50,411 nucleotides of DNA from Symbiobacterium sp. (GTDB lineage Bacteria; Bacillota; Sulfobacillia; UBA995; UBA9673). The notes under the pieces are model-generated. The model was not told the origin of the DNA. It made no database searches and worked only from the letters and a program-made list of their open reading frames with translations. The stretch's first letter is position 1. Every line of letters begins with the position of its first letter. Shown one piece after another: positions 243 through 41,742 of this stretch. The DNA is taken from assembly GCA_020725405.1 (NCBI GenBank), contig DYFB01000012.1, positions 1 through 50,411 of the forward strand, written 5' to 3'. The position numbers and the translations under genes were made by a program.

Positions 243-1124
243 ATGAAAAGGCGGATAATCCCCCTTCTGGTCCTCTGCGTCATCGGTTCCCTCCTGCTGA
301 GCTTCTCGGTCCAGGCCGCGGTTACCCACCGTGGCGGCGTCACCCCCGACAACCTGCCCTGGAACCGGAACCCATCGCGCCAGGTGACCTACGACTTCAG
401 CACGGTGAACACCAAGGAGACCTCGACGACCGGTACGGCCCTGGCCAAGCTGGCCCTGGTCATCGGTATCTCGGACTACTCCGGGACGTCTAGCGACCTC
501 AACTACTGTGACGACGACGCTTACGAGGTCTACAACACCCTCGTGAACGTCTACGGGTTCCCGTCGAACAACATCGTCCTCCTCATCGACTCCGACGCGA
601 CCGACGCGAACATCCGGGCCGGCATCGACTGGCTGATCTCCAACAGCGGTCCCGACTCGATCGTGGTCTTCGCCTACAGCGGCCACGGCTCGAGGTCCAA
701 CACCGACGTCGACGGCGACGGCGAGCGGGCAGACGAGTGCATCATCCCGTGGGAGCTCTCCCGTATTTGGGACGGTGAGCTCGCCAACCTCTTCAGCCAG
801 CTCACGTCGAACAAGGTCTGGATCTCCTTCGACTCCTGCTATGCGGGCGGCATGAACGACCCGGGTATCACCGGGCCCGGGAAGGTCGTGACCATGGCCT
901 GCGCCGAGAACGAGCTGTCCTACGAATCGAGCTCTATCCAGAACGGCTACTATACCTATCTGATGGTCGAGCTCGGCATGAGGCAGGGGAAGGCCGACGC
1001 CAACGGGGACGGCATCGTCACCGTCGAGGAGGCCTTCACCTACTGCAAGAACGAGATGCCGAAGTACAACCGCAGGCAGAAGCCGCAGATGAGCGACGGC
1101 GTCAGCGGCGATCTCCAGCTCTAG
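243..1124 (+). CDS. secreted caspase-fold (C14/metacaspase-like) cysteine peptidase
   Basis: A 293-aa protein with a clear signal peptide (MKRR, a hydrophobic stretch to about residue 20, likely cleavage after VQA at 25), so it should act outside the membrane. The p20-like caspase fold starts at ALVIGISDY (about 71-79). The catalytic dyad is visible as His148 in YSGHGS and Cys199 in DSCYAGG, as in peptidase family C14. Two acidic loops, DVDGDGERADE (155-165) and DANGDGIVTVEE (252-263), look like calcium-binding loops; the second matches an EF-hand loop. Metacaspases are often calcium-activated, so calcium dependence is a reasonable inference. ATG 243 follows a strong GGAGGGAGGTGAG site. It is a single gene, closed by the hairpin at 1150-1188. 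Substrate and role are unknown. Confidence 0.88.
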   Translation: MKRRIIPLLVLCVIGSLLLSFSVQAAVTHRGGVTPDNLPWNRNPSRQVTYDFSTVNTKETSTTGTALAKLALVIGISDYSGTSSDLNYCDDDAYEVYNTLVNVYGFPSNNIVLLIDSDATDANIRAGIDWLISNSGPDSIVVFAYSGHGSRSNTDVDGDGERADECIIPWELSRIWDGELANLFSQLTSNKVWISFDSCYAGGMNDPGITGPGKVVTMACAENELSYESSSIQNGYYTYLMVELGMRQGKADANGDGIVTVEEAFTYCKNEMPKYNRRQKPQMSDGVSGDLQL

Positions 1125-1149
1125 AGCCTGACGGAGCCTGACCAGTGAG

Positions 1150-1200
1150 CGAGGCACGCTCCCCGGATTCTTCCGGGGGCGTGCCTCGCCCCCTCTCTCT
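1150..1200 (+). terminator. strong terminator-like hairpin after the caspase-fold gene
   Basis: CGAGGCACGC (1150-1159) pairs perfectly with GCGTGCCTCG (1179-1188). The inner arms CCCCGGA and TCCGGGG continue the stem past one bulged base and leave a 4-nt loop. A pyrimidine-rich tract with several T residues follows (1189-1200). It lies 26 nt after the stop codon and just before the uvrA promoter, so it probably separates the two units. The tract is C/T rather than pure T, which is common in GC-rich genomes. Confidence 0.75.
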
Positions 1201-1228
1201 TGACCGAACAAGCGTTCGCCGTTATCCT
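1200..1228 (+). promoter_or_regulatory. sigma-A type promoter P1 of uvrA
   Basis: TTGACC (1200-1205) and TATCCT (1223-1228) are separated by exactly 17 nt. The -35 matches consensus at five of six positions. The spacer is occupied by the LexA box, so LexA bound there would block RNA polymerase. Confidence 0.65.
1205..1218. promoter_or_regulatory. LexA (DinR-type) SOS box in the uvrA promoter
   Basis: CGAACAAGCGTTCG is a perfect CGAAC-N4-GTTCG palindrome, the operator bound by LexA/DinR in Bacillus and relatives. It sits between the -35 and -10 of promoter P1 and upstream of a nucleotide-excision repair operon. Known biology: uvr genes are SOS-controlled in many bacteria. Inference: DNA damage induces uvrA-uvrC-ogt here through LexA cleavage. 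The lexA gene itself is not in the window. Confidence 0.85.
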
Positions 1229-1327
1229 GGAGGGGGAGCGGCCGGAACGGTCGCCCTCGGCTGAAACGGCGTCGGCCGGGCGGTCGGAGCGAACGCGCTC
1301 CTACCGGCAGGGCGGCCCGTCCGGCAG

Positions 1328-1336
1328 TGATATAAT
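1328..1336 (+). promoter_or_regulatory. extended -10 promoter P2 of uvrA
   Basis: TGATATAAT is a perfect extended -10 element (TG-N-TATAAT) about 57 nt before the uvrA start codon. No convincing -35 lies 17 nt upstream, which is acceptable for extended -10 promoters. It is about 110 nt downstream of the LexA box and probably gives basal, LexA-independent expression. Confidence 0.55.
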
Positions 1337-1392
1337 AAGGGTTACGGTCCTCAGCCTCAGGTCAGGCCGGCAAACTCGCGGAGGTAAGCCTC

Positions 1393-4260
<2,868 letters not shown>

Positions 4261-6953: not shown

Positions 6954-7193
6954 ATGGCCAGCTACGGGTATATAAGGATCGACTACACCGGATCCGTCTC
7001 CGACAGCCTCCGGGACTACCTCGGGGCGTCGGGTGTCCGCCCGGTGTCCGACACGCCCCTGATTCTCGTCACCCCTCAGCCCGGGCTGCTGCTCGGCCGC
7101 ATCGCCCGGTTCCTCTGCGAGGGGAGCATGGGCGTGAGGCGCATCGAGCTCCGGGGCAGCCGCGGGGAAACGGGAGAAGCGGGCATAGCTTGA
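6954..7193 (+). CDS. 79-aa hypothetical protein
   Basis: I do not recognise a family. From ATG 6954 the protein begins MASYGYIRIDYTGSVSDSL and has a compact mixed alpha/beta look without membrane segments or cysteine motifs (one Cys). The frame opens further upstream (6837), but that would start inside the ogt gene and run through the promoter at 6871-6899, so the ATG behind GGGGAGGG is preferred. It appears to be the first gene of a transcript continuing into the DUF2089 gene. Its Gly/Arg tail (about 70-79) may be disordered. Confidence 0.6.
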   Translation: MASYGYIRIDYTGSVSDSLRDYLGASGVRPVSDTPLILVTPQPGLLLGRIARFLCEGSMGVRRIELRGSRGETGEAGIA

Positions 7194-7256
7194 AAGAACC
7201 GGGGGGCCGCGCGCGGCCGCCCGGCTCGAGCGTCCGACGGGAGAGAGGTGAACGGC

Positions 7257-7646
7257 ATGGGGGAGAAGCGCAAGCTCATGGGCCGCTGCCCGGCCTGCGG
7301 GTCCGATCTGGCGGTGACCCGCCTGCACTGCTTCAACTGCGATACGGGCATCGAGGGCCGTTTCGAGATCTGCCGGTTCTGCCTGCTCACCCGGGACCAG
7401 AAGGAGTTCGTCGAGACCTTCCTCCGGGCCCGGGGCAACATCAGGGAAGTCGAGCGCGAGATGGGCATCTCCTATCCCACCGTCAGAAACAGACTCGACC
7501 AGGTCATCCGCGCCCTCGGCTACGACGTCGGCCCGGACCCCGACGACGTCCGGGCCAACGAGCGGCGCCGGGAGGTTCTCGCCCGCCTCAACCGCGGAGA
7601 GATCACCCCCGAGGAGGCCTTGAGGCTCCTCAAGGGGATTACCTGA
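7257..7646 (+). CDS. DUF2089 family zinc-ribbon/HTH protein
   Basis: A 129-aa probable DNA-binding protein. The N-terminus has a zinc ribbon, CPACG...LHCFNCDT (about 13-32), and a further CRFC pair. A helix-turn-helix segment with GISYPTVRNRLDQVI lies at about 69-83. The C-terminal 25 residues (REVLARLNRGEITPEEALRLL) form a two-helix module that recurs in the next proteins. This matches the DUF2089 family, which in Firmicutes often sits beside DUF4097 genes. ATG 7257 is placed 6-7 nt after GAGAGAGGTG; a GTG at 7248 overlaps that site. Inference: it regulates this cluster or presents the shared module to its neighbours. Confidence 0.85.
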   Translation: MGEKRKLMGRCPACGSDLAVTRLHCFNCDTGIEGRFEICRFCLLTRDQKEFVETFLRARGNIREVEREMGISYPTVRNRLDQVIRALGYDVGPDPDDVRANERRREVLARLNRGEITPEEALRLLKGIT

Positions 7647-13488: not shown

Positions 13489-14685
13489 GTGTGGAAGGTC
13501 CTCGTGGCGGCGGACTCGTTCAAGGGAAGCCTCTCCTCGTCGGCGGCCGGCGAGGCCGTCCGGAGGGGTTTCCTCCGGGTTGTCCCGGGGGCCGAGGTCA
13601 GGGTCGTGCCCGTGGCCGACGGGGGGGAGGGCACGGTGGAGGCCCTGGTCGCCGCGATGGGTGGACAGACCAGGGTGGCTCTCGTGACCGGTCCCCTGGG
13701 GGTGGAGAGCGTCCCGGCCACCTGGGGGGTTCTCCACGGCGGACGGAGGGCGGTTATCGAGATGGCTCAGGCCTCCGGTCTCCCGCTCGTCCCTCCCGCC
13801 CGGCGGGACCCCATGGTGACGACCACGGCCGGCACCGGCGAGCTCATCCGCGAAGCGCTCGAAGCCGGGTGCCGGGAGATACTCGTCGGCCTGGGGGGAA
13901 GCGCCACTGTCGATGCCGGCCTGGGAGCCATGCGCGCCCTAGGGGCCCGTCTCCTGGACGACCGGGGACGGCCGGTTCCACCGGGCGGCCGCGGTCTTCT
14001 GTCGCTGGCGGCCATCGATGTCTCGGCCATGGACCCCCGCCTCCGGGAGGTCTCCGTCACCGGCCTGGCCGACGTGACCAACCCCCTGATCGGGCGCGAC
14101 GGGGCCGCCCGGGTCTTCGGACCCCAGAAGGGAGCGGACCCGAAGGCCGTCGAGCTCCTCGACCGCGGGCTCGCCAACTTCGCCCGCGTGGCCGCCCGTG
14201 ACCTCCGGCCCGGATTCGACCCGGCCACGGTGCCCGCCGGCGGCGCGGCCGGCGGCCTCGGCGCGGGCCTCGCCGTCTTCCTGGGGGCCCGCCTGGTTCC
14301 GGGCATCAACTACGTCATGGAAGCGGCCCGGCTGACGGACCTCGTCCGCTGGGCCGACCTGGTCATCACGGGAGAGGGGAGCCTGGACGGGCAGAGCCGG
14401 CACGGGAAGACCTGCGCCGGCGTCGCCCGGCTCGCCCGGAGCCTCGACCGGCCGGTGTTCGTCCTCGCCGGTTCAGTGAGCGGCGAGGACGACGCTGTGG
14501 CCGCCCTCGGCATCGACGGCGTCCTTCCCGCCGTCCCGGGGCCGATGAGCCTCGTCGAGGCTATGGCCGGAGCAGCCGGCTTCCTCGAGGCCGCGGCCGC
14601 CCGTCTGGCGCGGCTCCTGGTCGCCGGGCAGCGTCTCGGCCGCCTCCCGGGCCGGGCCGGCCCGGGTCGCGGAGGGCCGTTCTAG
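13489..14685 (+). CDS. glxK: glycerate 2-kinase (GlxK/GarK family)
   Basis: Phosphorylates D-glycerate with ATP, giving 2-phosphoglycerate for the enolase step. The 398-aa protein has the family N-terminus VLVAADSFKGSLSS, the VPVADGGEGTVEA motif, the ILVGLGGSATVDAG segment and the VITGEGSLDGQS motif near the C-terminus. GTG 13489 follows GAGGTGAGG by about 7 nt and starts 8 nt after the HAD stop. A Gly/Arg tail (about 385-398) looks like low-complexity extension. Its TAG stop overlaps the stop codon of the convergent minus-strand gene. Confidence 0.94.
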   Translation: MWKVLVAADSFKGSLSSSAAGEAVRRGFLRVVPGAEVRVVPVADGGEGTVEALVAAMGGQTRVALVTGPLGVESVPATWGVLHGGRRAVIEMAQASGLPLVPPARRDPMVTTTAGTGELIREALEAGCREILVGLGGSATVDAGLGAMRALGARLLDDRGRPVPPGGRGLLSLAAIDVSAMDPRLREVSVTGLADVTNPLIGRDGAARVFGPQKGADPKAVELLDRGLANFARVAARDLRPGFDPATVPAGGAAGGLGAGLAVFLGARLVPGINYVMEAARLTDLVRWADLVITGEGSLDGQSRHGKTCAGVARLARSLDRPVFVLAGSVSGEDDAVAALGIDGVLPAVPGPMSLVEAMAGAAGFLEAAAARLARLLVAGQRLGRLPGRAGPGRGGPF

Positions 14686-14990
14686 AGCCTGGCCGAGAGG
14701 CGGACGAGAAGCCCGAGAGTCAGAGTCACGGCTTCGGCGACAGCGAGGGCCCAGGCGAAGGGAACGAAGCCCCGGTAGGGGAGGCGGGTGCGCCGCGCCA
14801 GCCCGGTCCGTGAACGGGCGGCTTCCAGGGCGCCGCCCAAGGCGAGAGGGAGTCCGACGGTCAGCCTCAGCCAGCGGATCCAAGGCCCCGCCCGGCGACG
14901 GTAGGGGATAGCCGCGACCAGGGCCGCGACCCACCAGCCCAGCCCGAGCAGGGCCGAGGATCCGAGACCGTACCACCAGGGGTCGCTCAC
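14682..14990 (-). CDS. 102-aa small integral membrane protein
   Basis: Three hydrophobic segments are visible: about 7-28 (LGSSALLGLGWWVAALVAAI), about 40-58 and about 77-98. A basic loop sits between the first two and the Arg-rich ARSRTGLARRTR stretch between the last two. No family recognised. It is the second gene of a minus-strand pair, overlapping the start of its stop-side neighbour: it begins 4 nt inside the end of the phospholipase-like gene, so they are probably translated together. Its stop overlaps the glxK stop. Confidence 0.65.
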   Translation of the reverse strand: MSDPWWYGLGSSALLGLGWWVAALVAAIPYRRRAGPWIRWLRLTVGLPLALGGALEAARSRTGLARRTRLPYRGFVPFAWALAVAEAVTLTLGLLVRLSARL

Positions 14991-15790
14991 GGCTCACGCC
15001 CCCTTGCCGCACCCCAGCCCGGTCGGTCCCCGGGGAACGGGTCGTCCAGGGCGAGGGTGAAGAAATAGTGGAGGAATCCGGCGAGGTAGCGGACGGCCCC
15101 GGGCACGAGGTGGGCCGCCGCGCGCGGGAAAGCATCGCGCGCCTCCGGGTGCCGGCAGAGGTTAAGGTAGAGCTCGTACCACGGGAAGGACTCGTGAGCC
15201 GCCAGGTCCACCCAGTCTGCCGGACTCCGCCAGTCCAGGACGTGCGGGGGCCCGGCCCGGGGCGGGTGGAAGACCGCCTGCCACTGGTAGCGGCCGCCGC
15301 TGCCGGGCGCGAAGTCCCGCCAGCGACCCCCGTCGGCGAGCCAGCCCTCGAACTCACCGTGCCCGCAGCCGGCCACCCCGGCGGCGTGGTGGGGTATCCA
15401 GACGTCGACCAGGAGGTGTGTGGCCCGCCCGAGCTCGTAGGCGGCTTCGTTGCGGCGGTCGCGCCGCCACAGGGTCAGGCCGTCCTGGAAGACCCGCTCG
15501 AGGGCCCTGGCCGCGGAGAGGCACCATCCGGCGTAGCCGCGGTGGGTCCAGGGATGATGAAAGTGGCTCAGGTGGAGGACATAGCCGGCCGTGGCCGGGT
15601 AGTCGGCCTCGAGGCTCCCGCGGAAGAGGTCGGAGACCAGGGGGGGGCGCCCCTCCCCCGGTGGAGAGGAGATGAGACGCGCGAGGTAGGTATGGCCGTC
15701 GGCCGCGGCCACATCCACAGCCGCGGCGACCAGGGCCGGGTGGTCCGGGGCCGCCCAGAGGACGGAGACGTCGGACACGGTCGTTCTCAC
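14987..15790 (-). CDS. zinc-dependent phospholipase C / S1-P1 nuclease-fold protein
   Basis: A 267-aa helical protein with the metal-ligand pattern of Bacillus-type zinc phospholipase C and P1 nuclease: an early His (PDHPALVAAAVDVAAADG), Asp in GSLEADY, His in HLSHFHHPW, the HLLVD motif with IPHH, and GHGEFE. No signal peptide is apparent, unlike the secreted enzymes. The GTG at 15790 is the best start because GAGG lies 7 nt upstream on this strand; in-frame starts up to 15865 exist. Inference: a hydrolase acting on phosphodiesters or phospholipids. The next gene encodes a small membrane protein and may be a partner. Confidence 0.75.
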   Translation of the reverse strand: MRTTVSDVSVLWAAPDHPALVAAAVDVAAADGHTYLARLISSPPGEGRPPLVSDLFRGSLEADYPATAGYVLHLSHFHHPWTHRGYAGWCLSAARALERVFQDGLTLWRRDRRNEAAYELGRATHLLVDVWIPHHAAGVAGCGHGEFEGWLADGGRWRDFAPGSGGRYQWQAVFHPPRAGPPHVLDWRSPADWVDLAAHESFPWYELYLNLCRHPEARDAFPRAAAHLVPGAVRYLAGFLHYFFTLALDDPFPGDRPGWGAARGREP

Positions 15791-15902
15791 CACGCACCTC
15801 GCGGAGGGGTCCCGGCCGGAAGTGGTCGCCGGGGGTGAGGATTGCGGCGGGACTCCCACGGCCAAGTGTAGTCCGGAGGGAGGGCGGGTAGAAGACCCGG
15901 AG

Positions 15903-15920
15903 GGGGCCGCTGGCGGCCCC
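15903..15920. other. short GC hairpin in the divergent region 15791-16056
   Basis: GGGGCCGC and GCGGCCCC flank two bases. The 266-bp stretch lies between divergent genes and should contain both promoters, but I see no convincing -35/-10 pair in it and no gene or tRNA. Confidence 0.35.
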
Positions 15921-16056
15921 GGGTGGAGGAACGAGACCGGATGCGGGGAAGGATTTCAGGGCGGTCGCCCACTGGAGGCGGGGGCCGCCGAGATCTTCCG
16001 GGATGCCGGCGAACTCCACCGGCGGCCGGACTGGCGAATGAAGGAGGCGGAGGGGC

Positions 16057-16554
16057 TTGGCTATCAGGCGTCTTTACCGTTCTAACCGCGAGCGCATCCT
16101 CGGCGGCGTATCCGGAGGGTTGGCTGAGTACTTCGAGATAGACGTAACCCTTGTGCGCCTGGCCTGGATAATCGCTGTCCTGGCCGGGGGCTTCGGTGTC
16201 CTGGCCTACATCATCGCCTGGATTATCATCCCGGAGAACCCGGTGGGGTGCGGGCGCCCCGCGGCGGGCGAGGCGGAGGGCCTTGCCGAGGCCGGTCCGG
16301 ACGCGGCCGGTGACGCTCCCGGCCGGGCCCGGGCGGGCGGCGAGGCCGGGGAGGAGACGGGCCGCTGCACCAGCCGGCCCGGCGGGGGGCACTGGGTCTT
16401 CGGCCTCATCCTCGTCGCCCTGGGCACCCTCCTCCTGCTGCGGAATTTCTTCCCCCTCTTCCAGCTCGGGAAGTACTGGCCTGTTCTCATCATCCTCCTC
16501 GGGGTGCTGGTCATCGCCTGCGGGCTGGGCCGCCGGTCCGAAGAGGGGGAGTGA
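16057..16554 (+). CDS. PspC-domain membrane protein with LiaI/LiaF-type second membrane domain
   Basis: A 165-aa protein. The PspC domain (about 3-62) begins RRLYRSNRERILGGVSGGLA and contains a long hydrophobic segment ending YIIAWIIIPEN. An Ala/Gly/Glu-rich linker (about 68-105) follows, then a two-helix LiaI/LiaF-like membrane region, HWVFGLILVALGTLLLLRNF and KYWPVLIILLGVLVIACGL. Family knowledge: PspC and LiaI/LiaF proteins sense or signal envelope stress. The TTG start is placed behind AAGGAGGCGGAGG. The next gene starts 3 nt after the stop and shares the same membrane module. Confidence 0.88.
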   Translation: MAIRRLYRSNRERILGGVSGGLAEYFEIDVTLVRLAWIIAVLAGGFGVLAYIIAWIIIPENPVGCGRPAAGEAEGLAEAGPDAAGDAPGRARAGGEAGEETGRCTSRPGGGHWVFGLILVALGTLLLLRNFFPLFQLGKYWPVLIILLGVLVIACGLGRRSEEGE

Positions 16555-16557
16555 GCC

Positions 16558-17469
16558 GTGAGTTCGCGCGTCTTCTGGGGCTTCGTTCTGGTCCTTATCG
16601 GCGGCATTCTCCTCGCGGTCAACCTCGGACTCGTCACCTGGGCCGTCTGGAGCGCTCTGTGGCGGGCTTGGCCCGTCCTCCTCGTCCTCTGGGGAGCGTC
16701 CATCCTCCTCCGGCCCGCCGGTCGGGTCGGGGCGGTGATCGTCGGCCTTCTGGCCGTGGCCGCGGCGGCCGGGGTCCTCATCTACGCTTATTATTACTAC
16801 CCGGCCGGGACCGCCGGCCGTCCGGCCGAACAGGTCCTGTCGGTGGAGCTGCCGCCGGAGGTGGAGCGAGTCGCCCTGGATCTCGAGTTCGGGGCCGGCC
16901 GTCTCGAGCTGGCCGCCGGGGCCCCGGAGGGGAAATTGGCCGTTGGAAGCCTGCAGTACCGGCCCCCGGGCATGGGCCAGCCGACGGTAGCTTTCTCCGC
17001 CTTTGGGACCGAAGCCGAGCTGGCGGTGACCCCGGGTCGCGGGATCTGGACCCCGGGCGGCGCGTCCACGACCGTCCGGTGGACCTTGGCTCTGAGCCCG
17101 CTGCCCGTCTACGTGATGGACATCGACCTCGGCGCCTGCGAGGCCCGGCTCGACCTCTCGGGCCTGAAGGTCGCCGTACTCGACCTCAAGACGGGCGCCT
17201 CCTCCGTGACGGTGACCTTCGGGGAGCAGGATCTGGACCTCACGGGTTCCCTTGATGTCGGGGTCTCCTCAGCCCTCCTGCGCCTCCCGCGGGCGGTCGG
17301 GGTGAAGATAGCTCTGAGCTCAGGCCTGACCAGCCACAACCTGGCCCAGACCGGGTTCGTGCGGGACGGCGATGAGTGGTCGTCGCCGGGCTTCCCGGAG
17401 GCGGCCACGCGCTTCGTCTTCAGGGTCGAGGCGGGGGTCAGCACCTTCAACGTGGAGTGGACCGGCTAG
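16558..17469 (+). CDS. LiaF-like envelope stress protein
   Basis: A 303-aa protein. The N-terminus has four hydrophobic helices (about 5-25, 29-50, 56-80 including VIVGLLAVAAAAGVLIYAYY), the LiaI/LiaF-like transmembrane region. Residues about 95-303 form a soluble beta-rich domain with repeated VALDLEFGAGRLEL and LDLKTGASSVTVTF motifs, as in the LiaF C-terminal domain (DUF2154). In Bacillus, LiaF restrains the LiaRS two-component system; no kinase/regulator pair is visible here, so the output is unknown. GTG 16558 lies 3 nt after the PspC gene, so they form an operon. Confidence 0.85.
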   Translation: MSSRVFWGFVLVLIGGILLAVNLGLVTWAVWSALWRAWPVLLVLWGASILLRPAGRVGAVIVGLLAVAAAAGVLIYAYYYYPAGTAGRPAEQVLSVELPPEVERVALDLEFGAGRLELAAGAPEGKLAVGSLQYRPPGMGQPTVAFSAFGTEAELAVTPGRGIWTPGGASTTVRWTLALSPLPVYVMDIDLGACEARLDLSGLKVAVLDLKTGASSVTVTFGEQDLDLTGSLDVGVSSALLRLPRAVGVKIALSSGLTSHNLAQTGFVRDGDEWSSPGFPEAATRFVFRVEAGVSTFNVEWTG

Positions 17470-17692
17470 GGTAGGACGGAGCCCGCGGCCGGCGCGGTCG
17501 GCGGTGCCGGTCCGGGTCGGGCGCCGGCCGACACACGGCTCCGAGCGGGGCTGGTCAGGCCGACCGCGTCGTCCGGAGGGCCGGCGAGGGTGAAGGAGGA
17601 AGGCGGCCTGTTGTCGAAGGTTCTACCGAATGGTCAGTAGACTCAGCCGAGGCCGGGACAGCCCGGGCGGACCACTCGGGGAGGGTCTGGGA

Positions 17693-18265
17693 GTGTCCAA
17701 GGAGGAGCGCATCCTGGAAGTGGCCATGAGGATCTTCCGGGAGCGGGGATACCATGCCGCCTCGATGCAGGAGATAGCCGACGCGGTGGGCATGCAAAAG
17801 GGCAGCCTGTACTACTACATATCCGGTAAGCAAGAGCTTCTCTTCATGATTCTCGAGCGGGCCATAGACACCATCACGACCAGGCTGGAGGAGATCTGGC
17901 GTTCCGACCTCCCGCCCAGGGAGAAGCTGTGGCAGGCCATCATCAACCATCTCGATATCGTCTCGCAGCGGCTGGACATGCTGACCATCCTCCTCCGGGA
18001 GAGACACGCTCTCAGCCCGAGCCAACAGGAAGCAATCGACAGCAAGAGGGTGAACTACGAGAGGCTTCTGCAGAAGATCCTGGCCGAGGGTGTCCGCACA
18101 GGCGAGTTCCGGGACATCGACGTCAAGATTGTGTCTTTCGGCATCCTCGGCATGTGCAACTGGCTCTACCAGTGGTACTCTCCTGAAGGTCGGCTCACGG
18201 CCAGGGAGATCGCCGAGATATTCGGGGACCTCATCTTCCGGGGCGTGCTCGCGCGGGAGACTTGA
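17693..18265 (+). CDS. TetR/AcrR family transcriptional regulator
   Basis: A 190-aa one-component regulator. The N-terminal HTH spans ILEVAMRIFRERGYHAASM and IADAVGMQKGSLYYYISGKQ (about 7-49), the classic TetR signature. The C-terminal helices resemble the fatty-acid/acyl-CoA responsive group (TetR_C_33-like, FadR/KstR2), but the ligand cannot be read from sequence. GTG 17693 is preferred because GGGAGGG lies 7 nt upstream; an in-frame ATG at 17630 has only a weak site. An ACC-GAAT-GGT element at 17625-17634 could be part of an autoregulatory operator, but it is short. No efflux or lipid gene adjoins it. Confidence 0.88.
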   Translation: MSKEERILEVAMRIFRERGYHAASMQEIADAVGMQKGSLYYYISGKQELLFMILERAIDTITTRLEEIWRSDLPPREKLWQAIINHLDIVSQRLDMLTILLRERHALSPSQQEAIDSKRVNYERLLQKILAEGVRTGEFRDIDVKIVSFGILGMCNWLYQWYSPEGRLTAREIAEIFGDLIFRGVLARET

Positions 18266-18298
18266 GCGCGGAGAACATAGAGCTCTCCCGAGGCCGGC

Positions 18299-18349
18299 GG
18301 GCCCGTCCGGGCGGCGGGCCCGTCCGGGCGGTGGGCCCGTCCGGGCGGG
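18299..18349. repeat. three 17-bp direct repeats
   Basis: GGGCCCGTCCGGGCGG plus one variable base is repeated head-to-tail at 18299-18315, 18316-18332 and 18333-18349. Each unit contains GGGCCC and is partly self-complementary, so the transcript could fold. It fills much of the 122-bp gap between the TetR gene and the next gene. Confidence 0.8.
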
Positions 18350-18387
18350 CAGGCGGGTCGGGTGCATGATAACGGGGGTGGTTTCCC

Positions 18388-19053
18388 TTGACGGCCGCCG
18401 ACGCTGGGGGCCAGGACCGGGCAGGACGGCGGGTGACGACGTACTTCGAACGACCGGGGCCCGAGAACACCTCCGCCGTGGTCGAGGCCGCCCTGGCCAG
18501 GGCGGCCGAGATCGGCCTGGACGATATCGTGGTGGCCTCGAACACCGGGACCACGGCCCGGGCTCTCCTGGCCGGCCTGAGGGACGGAAGAGGCGGAGCC
18601 CGGCCGGCGAGGACCAACCTTGTGGTCGTGACCCACCACGTTGGTTTTCGCTCCCCCGGGGAAGACGAGATGGACCCGGCCGTCCGCGAGGAACTGGTCG
18701 GCGCCGGGGCCAGGCTCCTGACGACGACCCACCTCTTCGGCGGCGTCGAGCGGGCCGTGACCAACCAGTTCGGGGGGCTCTACCCGGGGGCCCTCGTGGC
18801 CTGGACGCTCCGGCTCTTCGGGGAAGGACTCAAGGTCGCCGTCGAGATCGCGGTCATGGCCCTCGACGCCGGGCTCGTCCCCTACGGGCGCGACATCCTG
18901 GCCATAGGCGGGTCGGGGCGCGGGGCCGACACGGCGGTGGTCGTCCGGCCCTCCCACGCCAAGACCTTCTTCGAGACCCGGGTGGTCGAGATTGTCTGCC
19001 GTCCACTCCCCGAACGACGGCCTGAGGGTTGGTCCGGCGGCCCGGCGGGCTAG
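18388..19053 (+). CDS. stand-alone pyruvate kinase C-terminal (alpha/beta) domain protein
   Basis: A 221-aa protein corresponding to the PK_C fold alone, without the catalytic barrel. Typical segments are visible: DDIVVASNTGTTARALL, VVVTHHVGFRSPGEDEMD, THLFGGVERAVTNQFGG, YPGALVAWTLRLFGEGLKV and ILAIGGSGRGADTAVVV. Free-standing members occur in archaea and anaerobic bacteria; a regulatory or small-molecule-binding role is usually assumed. TTG 18388 follows GGGGGTGG by 7 nt; a GTG at 18433 would fit the usual family N-terminus (TTYFERPGPENT) but lacks a good site. It ends with its stop overlapping that of the convergent phosphoesterase. Confidence 0.82.
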   Translation: MTAADAGGQDRAGRRVTTYFERPGPENTSAVVEAALARAAEIGLDDIVVASNTGTTARALLAGLRDGRGGARPARTNLVVVTHHVGFRSPGEDEMDPAVREELVGAGARLLTTTHLFGGVERAVTNQFGGLYPGALVAWTLRLFGEGLKVAVEIAVMALDAGLVPYGRDILAIGGSGRGADTAVVVRPSHAKTFFETRVVEIVCRPLPERRPEGWSGGPAG

Positions 19054-19763
19054 GGAAGTCGGCCGCTCTCCAGGATGCGGGCCAGCGCCGCGACGATGTC
19101 AGGGGCGAGGCCCGTCCCCTTCAGACGGCTGACCGTATCGGCGAGGTCGTGGGCGACCCTCTTGAGCTCCAGGCGGCCGTCGACCCAGACGGCGTAGGAG
19201 GCGCGCGGATCGCCGTCGCGCGGCTGCCCCACGCTCCCGGGGTTGGCGACCGTCCGGCGGCCGAGCTCCTTCACGTACGGGACGTGGGTGTGGCCGACAA
19301 GGATGACGTCTGGGTCGCCCGGCGCGACATTCATGGCCTCGACCCAGCTTTCGGGATCGTCCTCCGGGGAAGCATACTCAAAGAGATTGTCCCTCGGCGA
19401 GGCGTGGGTCGCGTAGAAGGTGAGCCCCCCTAAGGTGAAGGTCGCCTCGGTCGGCAGGCGACCGAGGAACTCGAGTTCGGCGGGGCTGAGGACCGAGCGG
19501 GTAAACGGCCGCGAGGCCACCGACAGGGCGCGGGTAGCCTCGGAGCAGGCGCAGTCCACCCCCCGTGCCACCGCGTTGTCGTGGTTCCCGCGGACCCAGA
19601 CGGGGTCGAGCTCCGTGAGTCTCCGCAGGCAGGCCGAGGGGTCGGGCCCGTAGTCGACGGCGTCACCGAGAAAGACGACCCGGTCGAAGGCTGGCTCCGC
19701 GGCCAGGACGGCGTCAAGGGCGGCCAGGTTGCCGTGAACGTCCGAGAGGATCAGGAGCTTCAT
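19050..19763 (-). CDS. YfcE/MJ0936-type metallophosphoesterase
   Basis: A 237-aa calcineurin-like phosphoesterase using two metal ions. The motif set is complete: LSDVHGN (Asp8, His10), FLGDAVDYGP, VRGNHDNAV, ATHASP and VGHTHVPY. Such proteins hydrolyse phosphodiesters; the true substrate is unknown. It has no signal peptide. It is a single gene, divergent from the cupin isomerase gene across a 122-bp gap, and its stop overlaps that of the convergent upstream gene in a shared CTAG. Confidence 0.9.
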   Translation of the reverse strand: MKLLILSDVHGNLAALDAVLAAEPAFDRVVFLGDAVDYGPDPSACLRRLTELDPVWVRGNHDNAVARGVDCACSEATRALSVASRPFTRSVLSPAELEFLGRLPTEATFTLGGLTFYATHASPRDNLFEYASPEDDPESWVEAMNVAPGDPDVILVGHTHVPYVKELGRRTVANPGSVGQPRDGDPRASYAVWVDGRLELKRVAHDLADTVSRLKGTGLAPDIVAALARILESGRLP

Positions 19764-40536: not shown

Positions 40537-40743
40537 GTGGCCAACGACAAGAGGGACCGCCGCGGCGACCTGCTCAGAGACCTCAACAAGCGTAGGTTCG
40601 AAGAAGAGGTCGCCGAGGAGATAGGGATAAGCCTCGAGCGGAGGACCGGAAGACCGGCGCGTCGCGCGCGTGACGCGGCCGCCTCGCCCGGGGCCGACGG
40701 TCGGCTCTCCGGGGCCCGCGACCGGGGTCGTCCGGAGGTCTGA
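40537..40743 (+). CDS. 68-aa basic protein, faint resemblance to alpha/beta small acid-soluble spore proteins
   Basis: A small, highly charged protein. The segment FEEEVAEEIGI (about 22-32) resembles the first conserved helix of alpha/beta SASPs (K-x-E-V-A-x-E-L-G-I). The second conserved SASP region, with its Gly-Gly-x-Met stretch, is not recognisable; the C-terminal half is an Arg/Ala/Gly-rich low-complexity tail. So the family call is tentative. The start GTG is fixed by GGAGGTGA at 40522-40529, which is hidden in the upstream hairpin. It stands alone between CapA and the P-loop gene, in the same frame as the latter with one TGA between them. Confidence 0.5.
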   Translation: MANDKRDRRGDLLRDLNKRRFEEEVAEEIGISLERRTGRPARRARDAAASPGADGRLSGARDRGRPEV

Positions 40744-40830
40744 GGTCTGGAGAAGGCATCCCGGCCGGGCCCGGTCCCCGTCGGAGCTCGGGGCCGTCCG
40801 AGCGGGGTTCTCGAGAAGGAGAGACACGCC

Positions 40831-41742
40831 CTGACCGACGTCTCCGTCCTCCGGCCCCGGCCCAGGGTCATCGCCTTCGTCGGCCCGGCCGGGACGGGCA
40901 AGAGCCACCGGGCCTCGCTTGTCGCCCATGAGACCGGAGCCACGGTCGTCCTGGACGACGGGCTTCTCATCGCCGGGGGGAAGATCCTGGCCGGTCGGTC
41001 GGCCAAGCGGGAGCCGACGAAGGTGGCGGCCATGAGGCGTGCCCTGCTGGAGGACCCGGCCCATGCCGCGGAGATCCGCGAGGCCCTCCGCCGGGAGGAC
41101 CCGGACGTGCTTCTTATTATTGGCATCTCCGAGGACATGATCGGCCGGGTGGCCCGGAACCTGGGTCTTCCGCCTCCCGCCCGGATCATCCCTATCGAGG
41201 CGATGGCCTCCCCCAGGCAGATGCGCAAGGCCCTCCGCATCCGGCGAAGCGAGGACAAGCACGTCATCCCCGCCCCGACCCTCGAAGTCCGCAAGGGCTT
41301 CGACGGCTACCGCGTGGACCCGCTCAGGGTCTTCCTGAAGGCCCGCGAGGAACGGCGGGCTCTGGACCAGGAGCAGTCCGCCCCGGGTCACTTCATTGAA
41401 AAGAGCGTCGTCCGGCCGACCTGGAGCTCCCTCGGACGGTTCTACATCGAAGAGGTCGTCCTCGCGGCCATCGCCGCCCGGGCGGCCGTCGAGACGCCGG
41501 GCGTGGGTCGGGTTCACCACGTCAAGGTCGAGACGACCGAGGCCGGGGTGGCCCTCGAGCTTCACCTCGGACTGGTTTACGGTTCGGTCATCGCCGACGT
41601 GGCCGACCAGGCCCGCCGGAGCGTGGCCACGGTCCTCGAGCACATGACCGCGCTCACCTGCCGCCGGGTGGACGTCCGGATCACCAGCATCCTCCCCCCG
41701 ACGATGGCGGGGCCCCGAGAGGGTCCGTCCGAGAGGCGATGA
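40831..41742 (+). CDS. P-loop ATPase fused to an Asp23/Gls24 domain, apparent CTG start
   Basis: A 303-aa protein. Residues about 13-30 hold a P-loop (VIAFVGPAGTGKSHRASLVA), followed by VVLDDGLLIAGGKILAGRSA. From about 195 the sequence is an Asp23/Gls24 (DUF322) domain: RFYIEEVVLAAIAARAAVE, VALELHLGLVYGSVIADVA, LTCRRVDVRITSI. Asp23 proteins are linked to envelope stress in Gram-positives. Between the TGA at 40741 and the P-loop the frame has no ATG, GTG or TTG, but CTG 40831 lies 7 nt after AAGGAGAG (40816-40823). The first standard start (GTG near 41014) would delete the P-loop. I therefore assign CTG. Confidence 0.75.
   Translation: MTDVSVLRPRPRVIAFVGPAGTGKSHRASLVAHETGATVVLDDGLLIAGGKILAGRSAKREPTKVAAMRRALLEDPAHAAEIREALRREDPDVLLIIGISEDMIGRVARNLGLPPPARIIPIEAMASPRQMRKALRIRRSEDKHVIPAPTLEVRKGFDGYRVDPLRVFLKAREERRALDQEQSAPGHFIEKSVVRPTWSSLGRFYIEEVVLAAIAARAAVETPGVGRVHHVKVETTEAGVALELHLGLVYGSVIADVADQARRSVATVLEHMTALTCRRVDVRITSILPPTMAGPREGPSERR

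Follow-up and report, generated by a model that had tools for sequence, protein, structure and literature searches.

A probable CTG start codon for a P-loop/Asp23 fusion gene of Symbiobacterium sp., with other genes that lack a canonical start

Where does translation begin when a reading frame offers no ATG, GTG or TTG codon upstream of a conserved P-loop? The question is raised by a gene of Symbiobacterium sp. encoding a fusion of a P-loop region and an Asp23 domain, located in a stretch of 50,411 nucleotides that we refer to as the window. Major features of the locus, and of other genes discussed here, are summarized in Table 1. Direct reading of the window revealed an in-frame TGA at 40741-40743 that shuts the frame on its 5' side. 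The only in-frame NTG codons 5' of the P-loop are CTG 40747 and CTG 40831, and ATG, GTG and TTG are absent from all three forward frames between 40741 and 40918. This confirms the initial annotation, which had held that no canonical start can include the P-loop and had proposed CTG 40831, 7 nt behind a Shine-Dalgarno (SD) sequence; that spacing was found as described. Prodigal considers ATG, GTG and TTG only (PMC2848648), and the first canonical codon, GTG 41023, lies 64 residues downstream of CTG 40831, past the P-loop. The warning that automatic calling would drop about 60 residues together with the ATP site is therefore right for Prodigal. Based on the sequence and its homologues, we consider a start at CTG 40831 to be the best reading, with a probability of roughly 0.75.

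Table 1. Features of the P-loop/Asp23 locus (window coordinates) and of other genes lacking a canonical start (L, locus; C, contig; G000, this genome)
Feature	Location	Strand	Remarks
SASP-like gene (weak), GTG start, 68 aa	40537-40743	+	SD -16.9 kcal/mol; its stop is the frame-closing TGA
GGAGGT (40734-40739) and CTG 40747, alternative start	40734-40749	+	SD -10.7 kcal/mol, 7-nt gap
Shine-Dalgarno AAGGAGAG	40816-40823	+	Read directly; duplex -9.7 kcal/mol; 7-nt gap to CTG 40831
Proposed CTG start codon	40831-40833	+	SD-preceded; aligned with SD-preceded TTG of G003
P-loop/Asp23 fusion gene, 303 aa	40831-41742	+	Homologues in 60/61 genomes; alignment of 29 sequences
Walker A motif GPAGTGKS	40882-40905	+	Residues 18-25 from CTG 40831; G18, G21, G23, K24, S25 invariant in 29 sequences
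GTG, first canonical in-frame start, likely mis-annotated start	41023-41025	+	SD poor, -6.9 kcal/mol
Asp23 domain PF03780, residues 229-287	41515-41691	+	Pfam E 1.9e-10
queH	L137 (G000:C28) 7052-7609	-	Frame opens TAG-CTG, GGAGG upstream; CTG is sole NTG before conserved cysteines
ispF	L065 (G000:C50) 16521-17015	+	No ATG/GTG/TTG before conserved N-terminus; CTG overlaps ispD stop as CTGA
Metal-transporting P-type ATPase	L137 (G000:C28) 14648-17014	-	HMA domain precedes first canonical start (GTG, residue 85); SD-preceded CTG at residue 63
DUF401 gene	L151 (G000:C25:20001-40000) 18003-19271	-	No canonical start before N-terminal region; CTG at SD position
AI-2E transporter	L148 (G000:C83) 636-1724	-	No canonical start before N-terminal region; ATA at SD position
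TilS	L149 (G000:C88) 16634-18175	-	No canonical start before N-terminal region; ATC or ACG at SD position
RlmI-like methyltransferase	L076 (G000:C7) 1659-2942	-	PUA domain starts 58 residues ahead of the first canonical start
ndk, G001	L170 17416	+	GGAGGTGA before CTG, -15 kcal/mol
Radical SAM gene, G001	L160 16437	+	GGGGGAGG before CTG
FMN reductase gene, G001	L161 10646-11284	-	SD-preceded ATC
ASCH gene, G001	L152 677	+	SD-preceded ATC
PIN-domain gene, control G049 (one-contig genome)	L178 6485-7195	+	Domain starts before any canonical start

The fusion had been described as little studied. No paper on it was found in a limited literature collection. Within its class, though, the fusion is common, and almost all genomes sampled (60 of the 61 searched) have it. 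Its Asp23 match scores 41.6 bits against a gathering score of 28, and all 29 aligned members match the profile at E values up to 1. No named NTPase family was found above its cut-off; the scores were 17.9 bits for AAA (cut-off 21.2), 16.1 for IPT (20) and 16.4 for AAA_33 (27). A PDB profile search returned mainly ABC transporters, with little beyond the Walker A region, and the single-sequence AlphaFold model (mean pLDDT 36) was unusable. The Asp23 domain is shared with YqhY and YloU of B. subtilis (Asp23/DUF322; PMC5437119), from which the protein differs by an extra P-loop region, some 200 residues long, at its N-terminus. YqhY appears to restrain acetyl-CoA carboxylase (PMC5437119). By analogy with YqhY, and with low confidence, the protein might bind nucleotides and act on envelope or lipid metabolism, either as a nucleotide-dependent regulator or as a scaffold. 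The gap gene adjoins the fusion gene here as well as in G001, G002 and G049.

Homologues that start downstream of the P-loop had been named as evidence that would speak against the CTG. Instead, in 36 of 50 inspected genomes (hand count) an ATG, GTG or TTG precedes the first P-loop glycine by exactly 7 codons. The conserved P-loop and this usual start at -7 together indicate that the full-length protein, P-loop included, is the real one. At -7, proline codons stand in the window and in G002; the window's family does not use this start, which is the common one in the class. SD-preceded codons are found further upstream in the relatives: GAGAGGAGACACC-TTG in G001, 22 codons before the P-loop, GGGGAGGGAAACCG-TTG in G003, 13 codons before it, and GAGGGGGGAAGAGAA-CTG in G002, 30 codons before it, where a GTG at 49 codons has no usable SD. 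An alignment of relatives had been suggested as a check on the start codon. When 40806-40850 was aligned locally with G003, the TTG of G003 fell exactly on CTG 40831 (26 of 2000 shuffles were as good); the alignment with G001 is similar and weaker (153 of 2000), and none was obtained with G002.

Within the window, the SD sequence before CTG 40831 is by itself moderate evidence, because in-frame codons near the gene starts of this genome are preceded at a suitable distance by a 5-mer SD core in about 8.6% of cases and by a 6-mer in 2.5% by chance; homology carries the case. The codons of 40831-40869 score 0.19, which classes them as coding: 28% of coding windows score as low and less than 1% of upstream windows as high. 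The short N-terminus (residues 1-11) is not conserved. An Rfam search of the window returned zero matches. The initial annotation read the SD of CTG 40831 correctly and missed the good SD of CTG 40747, which is slightly the better of the two. This second codon lies 3 nt past the upstream stop, so close that GGAGGT and termination-reinitiation coupling could start a protein 28 residues longer. It is also the best-SD CTG of the gene in the codon-identity test described below, in whose scoring CTG 40831 is weaker by 1.7 kcal/mol. Against it, the codons of 40744-40830 score only 0.05, in the 5% tail of coding and of non-coding windows alike and intermediate between the two classes, with a GC3 of 0.76 compared with 0.88-1.00 further downstream. 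No relative supports CTG 40747, and in the alignments the starts of the sisters correspond to 40831. We regard CTG 40747 as the chief alternative to CTG 40831, though a distinctly less probable one.

Is the P-loop/Asp23 gene alone in lacking a canonical start? Genome-wide, there was no enrichment of SD sequences before CTG (29/443), so that CTG can be at most a rare start in this genome. A second, codon-blind screen looked for frames with many modelled coding codons before the first ATG, GTG or TTG. It covered 878 kb (39%, 618 frames) of this genome (G000), 347 kb (about 15%, 227 frames) of G001 and 514 frames of three control genomes. Genes were retained when conserved sequence, judged by the Pfam start or a family motif, lay upstream of any canonical start; most are Pfam-supported. 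Eight genes were retained in G000 and five in G001, and these 13 of 845 frames, compared with 1 of 514 in the controls, give a Fisher p of 0.02 for a set curated by hand after the sequences had been seen. CTG occupies the best-SD position in 6 of the 13 genes (permutation p = 0.0038), and CTG, ATC, ATA or ATT does so in 10 (permutation p 0.00015); no excess at this position was found for seven control codons (CTC, GTC, GCC, GAC, GGC, CGG and GAG). The results are suggestive of a lineage-level excess of genes without a canonical start. Between close relatives, switches of an AUG start to CUG numbered 2 in 61,358 (PMC5622118); it would thus be out of the ordinary for one genome to hold several genes of this kind.

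The clearest CTG-only cases, as far as can be read from the DNA, are queH and ispF. The frame of queH opens with TAG-CTG-CCA-AGG-GTC-CTG-CTT-CAT-GTC-TGC-TGC, and its Pfam profile begins at residue 4. In ispF, whose open frame has no canonical start before residue 48, the profile begins at residue 10, and CTG-AGC-GAG of this genome corresponds to ATG-AGC-GAG in the G003 orthologue. Together with P-loop conservation and the aligned TTG of G003, these two genes of the same genome support the proposal of CTG 40831 as a start. The ndk, radical SAM, FMN reductase and ASCH genes of G001 have no canonical start before their conserved part; the N-terminus is less well supported in DUF401 and ndk, where the best Pfam stretch lies further in. 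Neither the RlmI-like gene nor an IclR gene of G001 offers a near-cognate codon at its best SD site, and both are unexplained. For the single control gene listed in Table 1, ATT with a modest SD is the likeliest start.

An error in the consensus or assembly would be another source of such frames: the true codon at 40831 or elsewhere could be canonical, or an indel could have separated the frame from the upstream gene. The assembly is a fragmented draft of 97 contigs, and the RlmI-like and IclR genes could be errors of this kind. However, a small indel between 40741 and 40918 could not create a start, since no forward frame there contains a canonical one. Real initiation, furthermore, predicts an excess of near-cognate codons, whereas random errors do not and would not place such codons exactly at the SD position in several genes. 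We regard an error at this locus as improbable. Still less likely is a functional truncated protein from GTG 41023, which has in its favour that it is the first canonical start; its SD is poor, and the skipped codons of 40870-41022 score as fully coding (0.34) and specify residues that do not vary among 29 homologues.

The upstream SASP-like gene, whose Pfam match is below the cut-off, also precedes the P-loop/Asp23 gene in G001, G002 and G003 (tblastn 4e-17 to 7.5e-10); a small gene of this type is found at this place throughout the family. In the window both genes share a frame, which would allow readthrough of TGA 40741 or a frameshift to yield a SASP-like/P-loop fusion, but the upstream gene lies outside the frame of the P-loop gene in G001 and G003, so that such a fusion is not conserved and is the least credible of the explanations; the frameshift into this gene that the initial annotation had raised as a possible refutation is likewise not favoured.

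If translation starts at CTG 40831, AAGGAGAG would position the 30S subunit there and initiator fMet-tRNA would read CUG through its CAU anticodon, with a weak first-position C-U mismatch. The protein would begin with Met; the expected N-terminal peptide is MTDVSVLRPRPR, or TDVSVLRPRPR after Met removal. In the AUU-started genes infC and pcnB, too, the initiator tRNA reads a near-cognate codon; those are single special genes, whereas here the genes are unrelated and would start at CTG, possibly also at ATC or ATA. The frame, the SD, the lack of a canonical start, the conserved P-loop and the other CTG-only genes of this genome are established by the analysis; that translation does begin at CTG 40831, with what yield, and with or without coupling to the gene upstream, is what we infer. 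Coupling is possible and made uncertain by the 87-nt gap to 40831. Output would probably be low, partly offset by the SD, and the simplest inference is a low dosage for which the SD compensates; in E. coli, output from CUG is 0.86% of that from AUG (PMC11497404), a figure that speaks against a CTG start. A close parallel is the rep gene of FIB plasmid replicons, for which CTG initiation was proven by N-terminal analysis and mutation (PMC11983097). Like the window gene, rep has CTG behind a good ribosome-binding site, a combination thought to yield just enough protein, and its annotation usually picks a downstream GTG, as with GTG 41023 here (PMC11983097). The difference is that rep is a plasmid gene with a proven start, whereas the window gene is chromosomal and its start is read from DNA. 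The P-loop/Asp23 gene is a further case of the known CTG-start genes, themselves very rare: CTG makes up 0.024% of annotated bacterial starts (PMC11497404). Because Prodigal, a gene caller in wide use, passes over CTG, that figure may not reflect the true frequency of CTG starts.

Could the family as a whole initiate less strictly? The canonical initiator tRNA anticodon arm was not found in the draft G000 among the 30 tRNA matches listed. In the wider comparison it was not found in G000, G001 and G003 and is present in G002, G004, G005, G029 and G049; assembly gaps are probably responsible for the missing arms. We consider it possible, with the odds somewhat against, that this is a family of high-GC Firmicutes with relaxed start-codon discrimination, in which about 1-2% of genes start at CTG or ATC/ATA, among them genes of metabolism and tRNA modification such as ispF and queH. 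An altered initiator tRNA, altered initiation factors or an altered ribosome might be the cause. The P-loop, the DxH motif of IspF and the cysteines of QueH are conserved N-terminal motifs that are lost under standard start rules, and if discrimination is indeed relaxed, standard annotation would systematically truncate such genes. The P-loop/Asp23 locus and its companion genes provide a concrete list with which CUG use by bacteria can be tested within one lineage.
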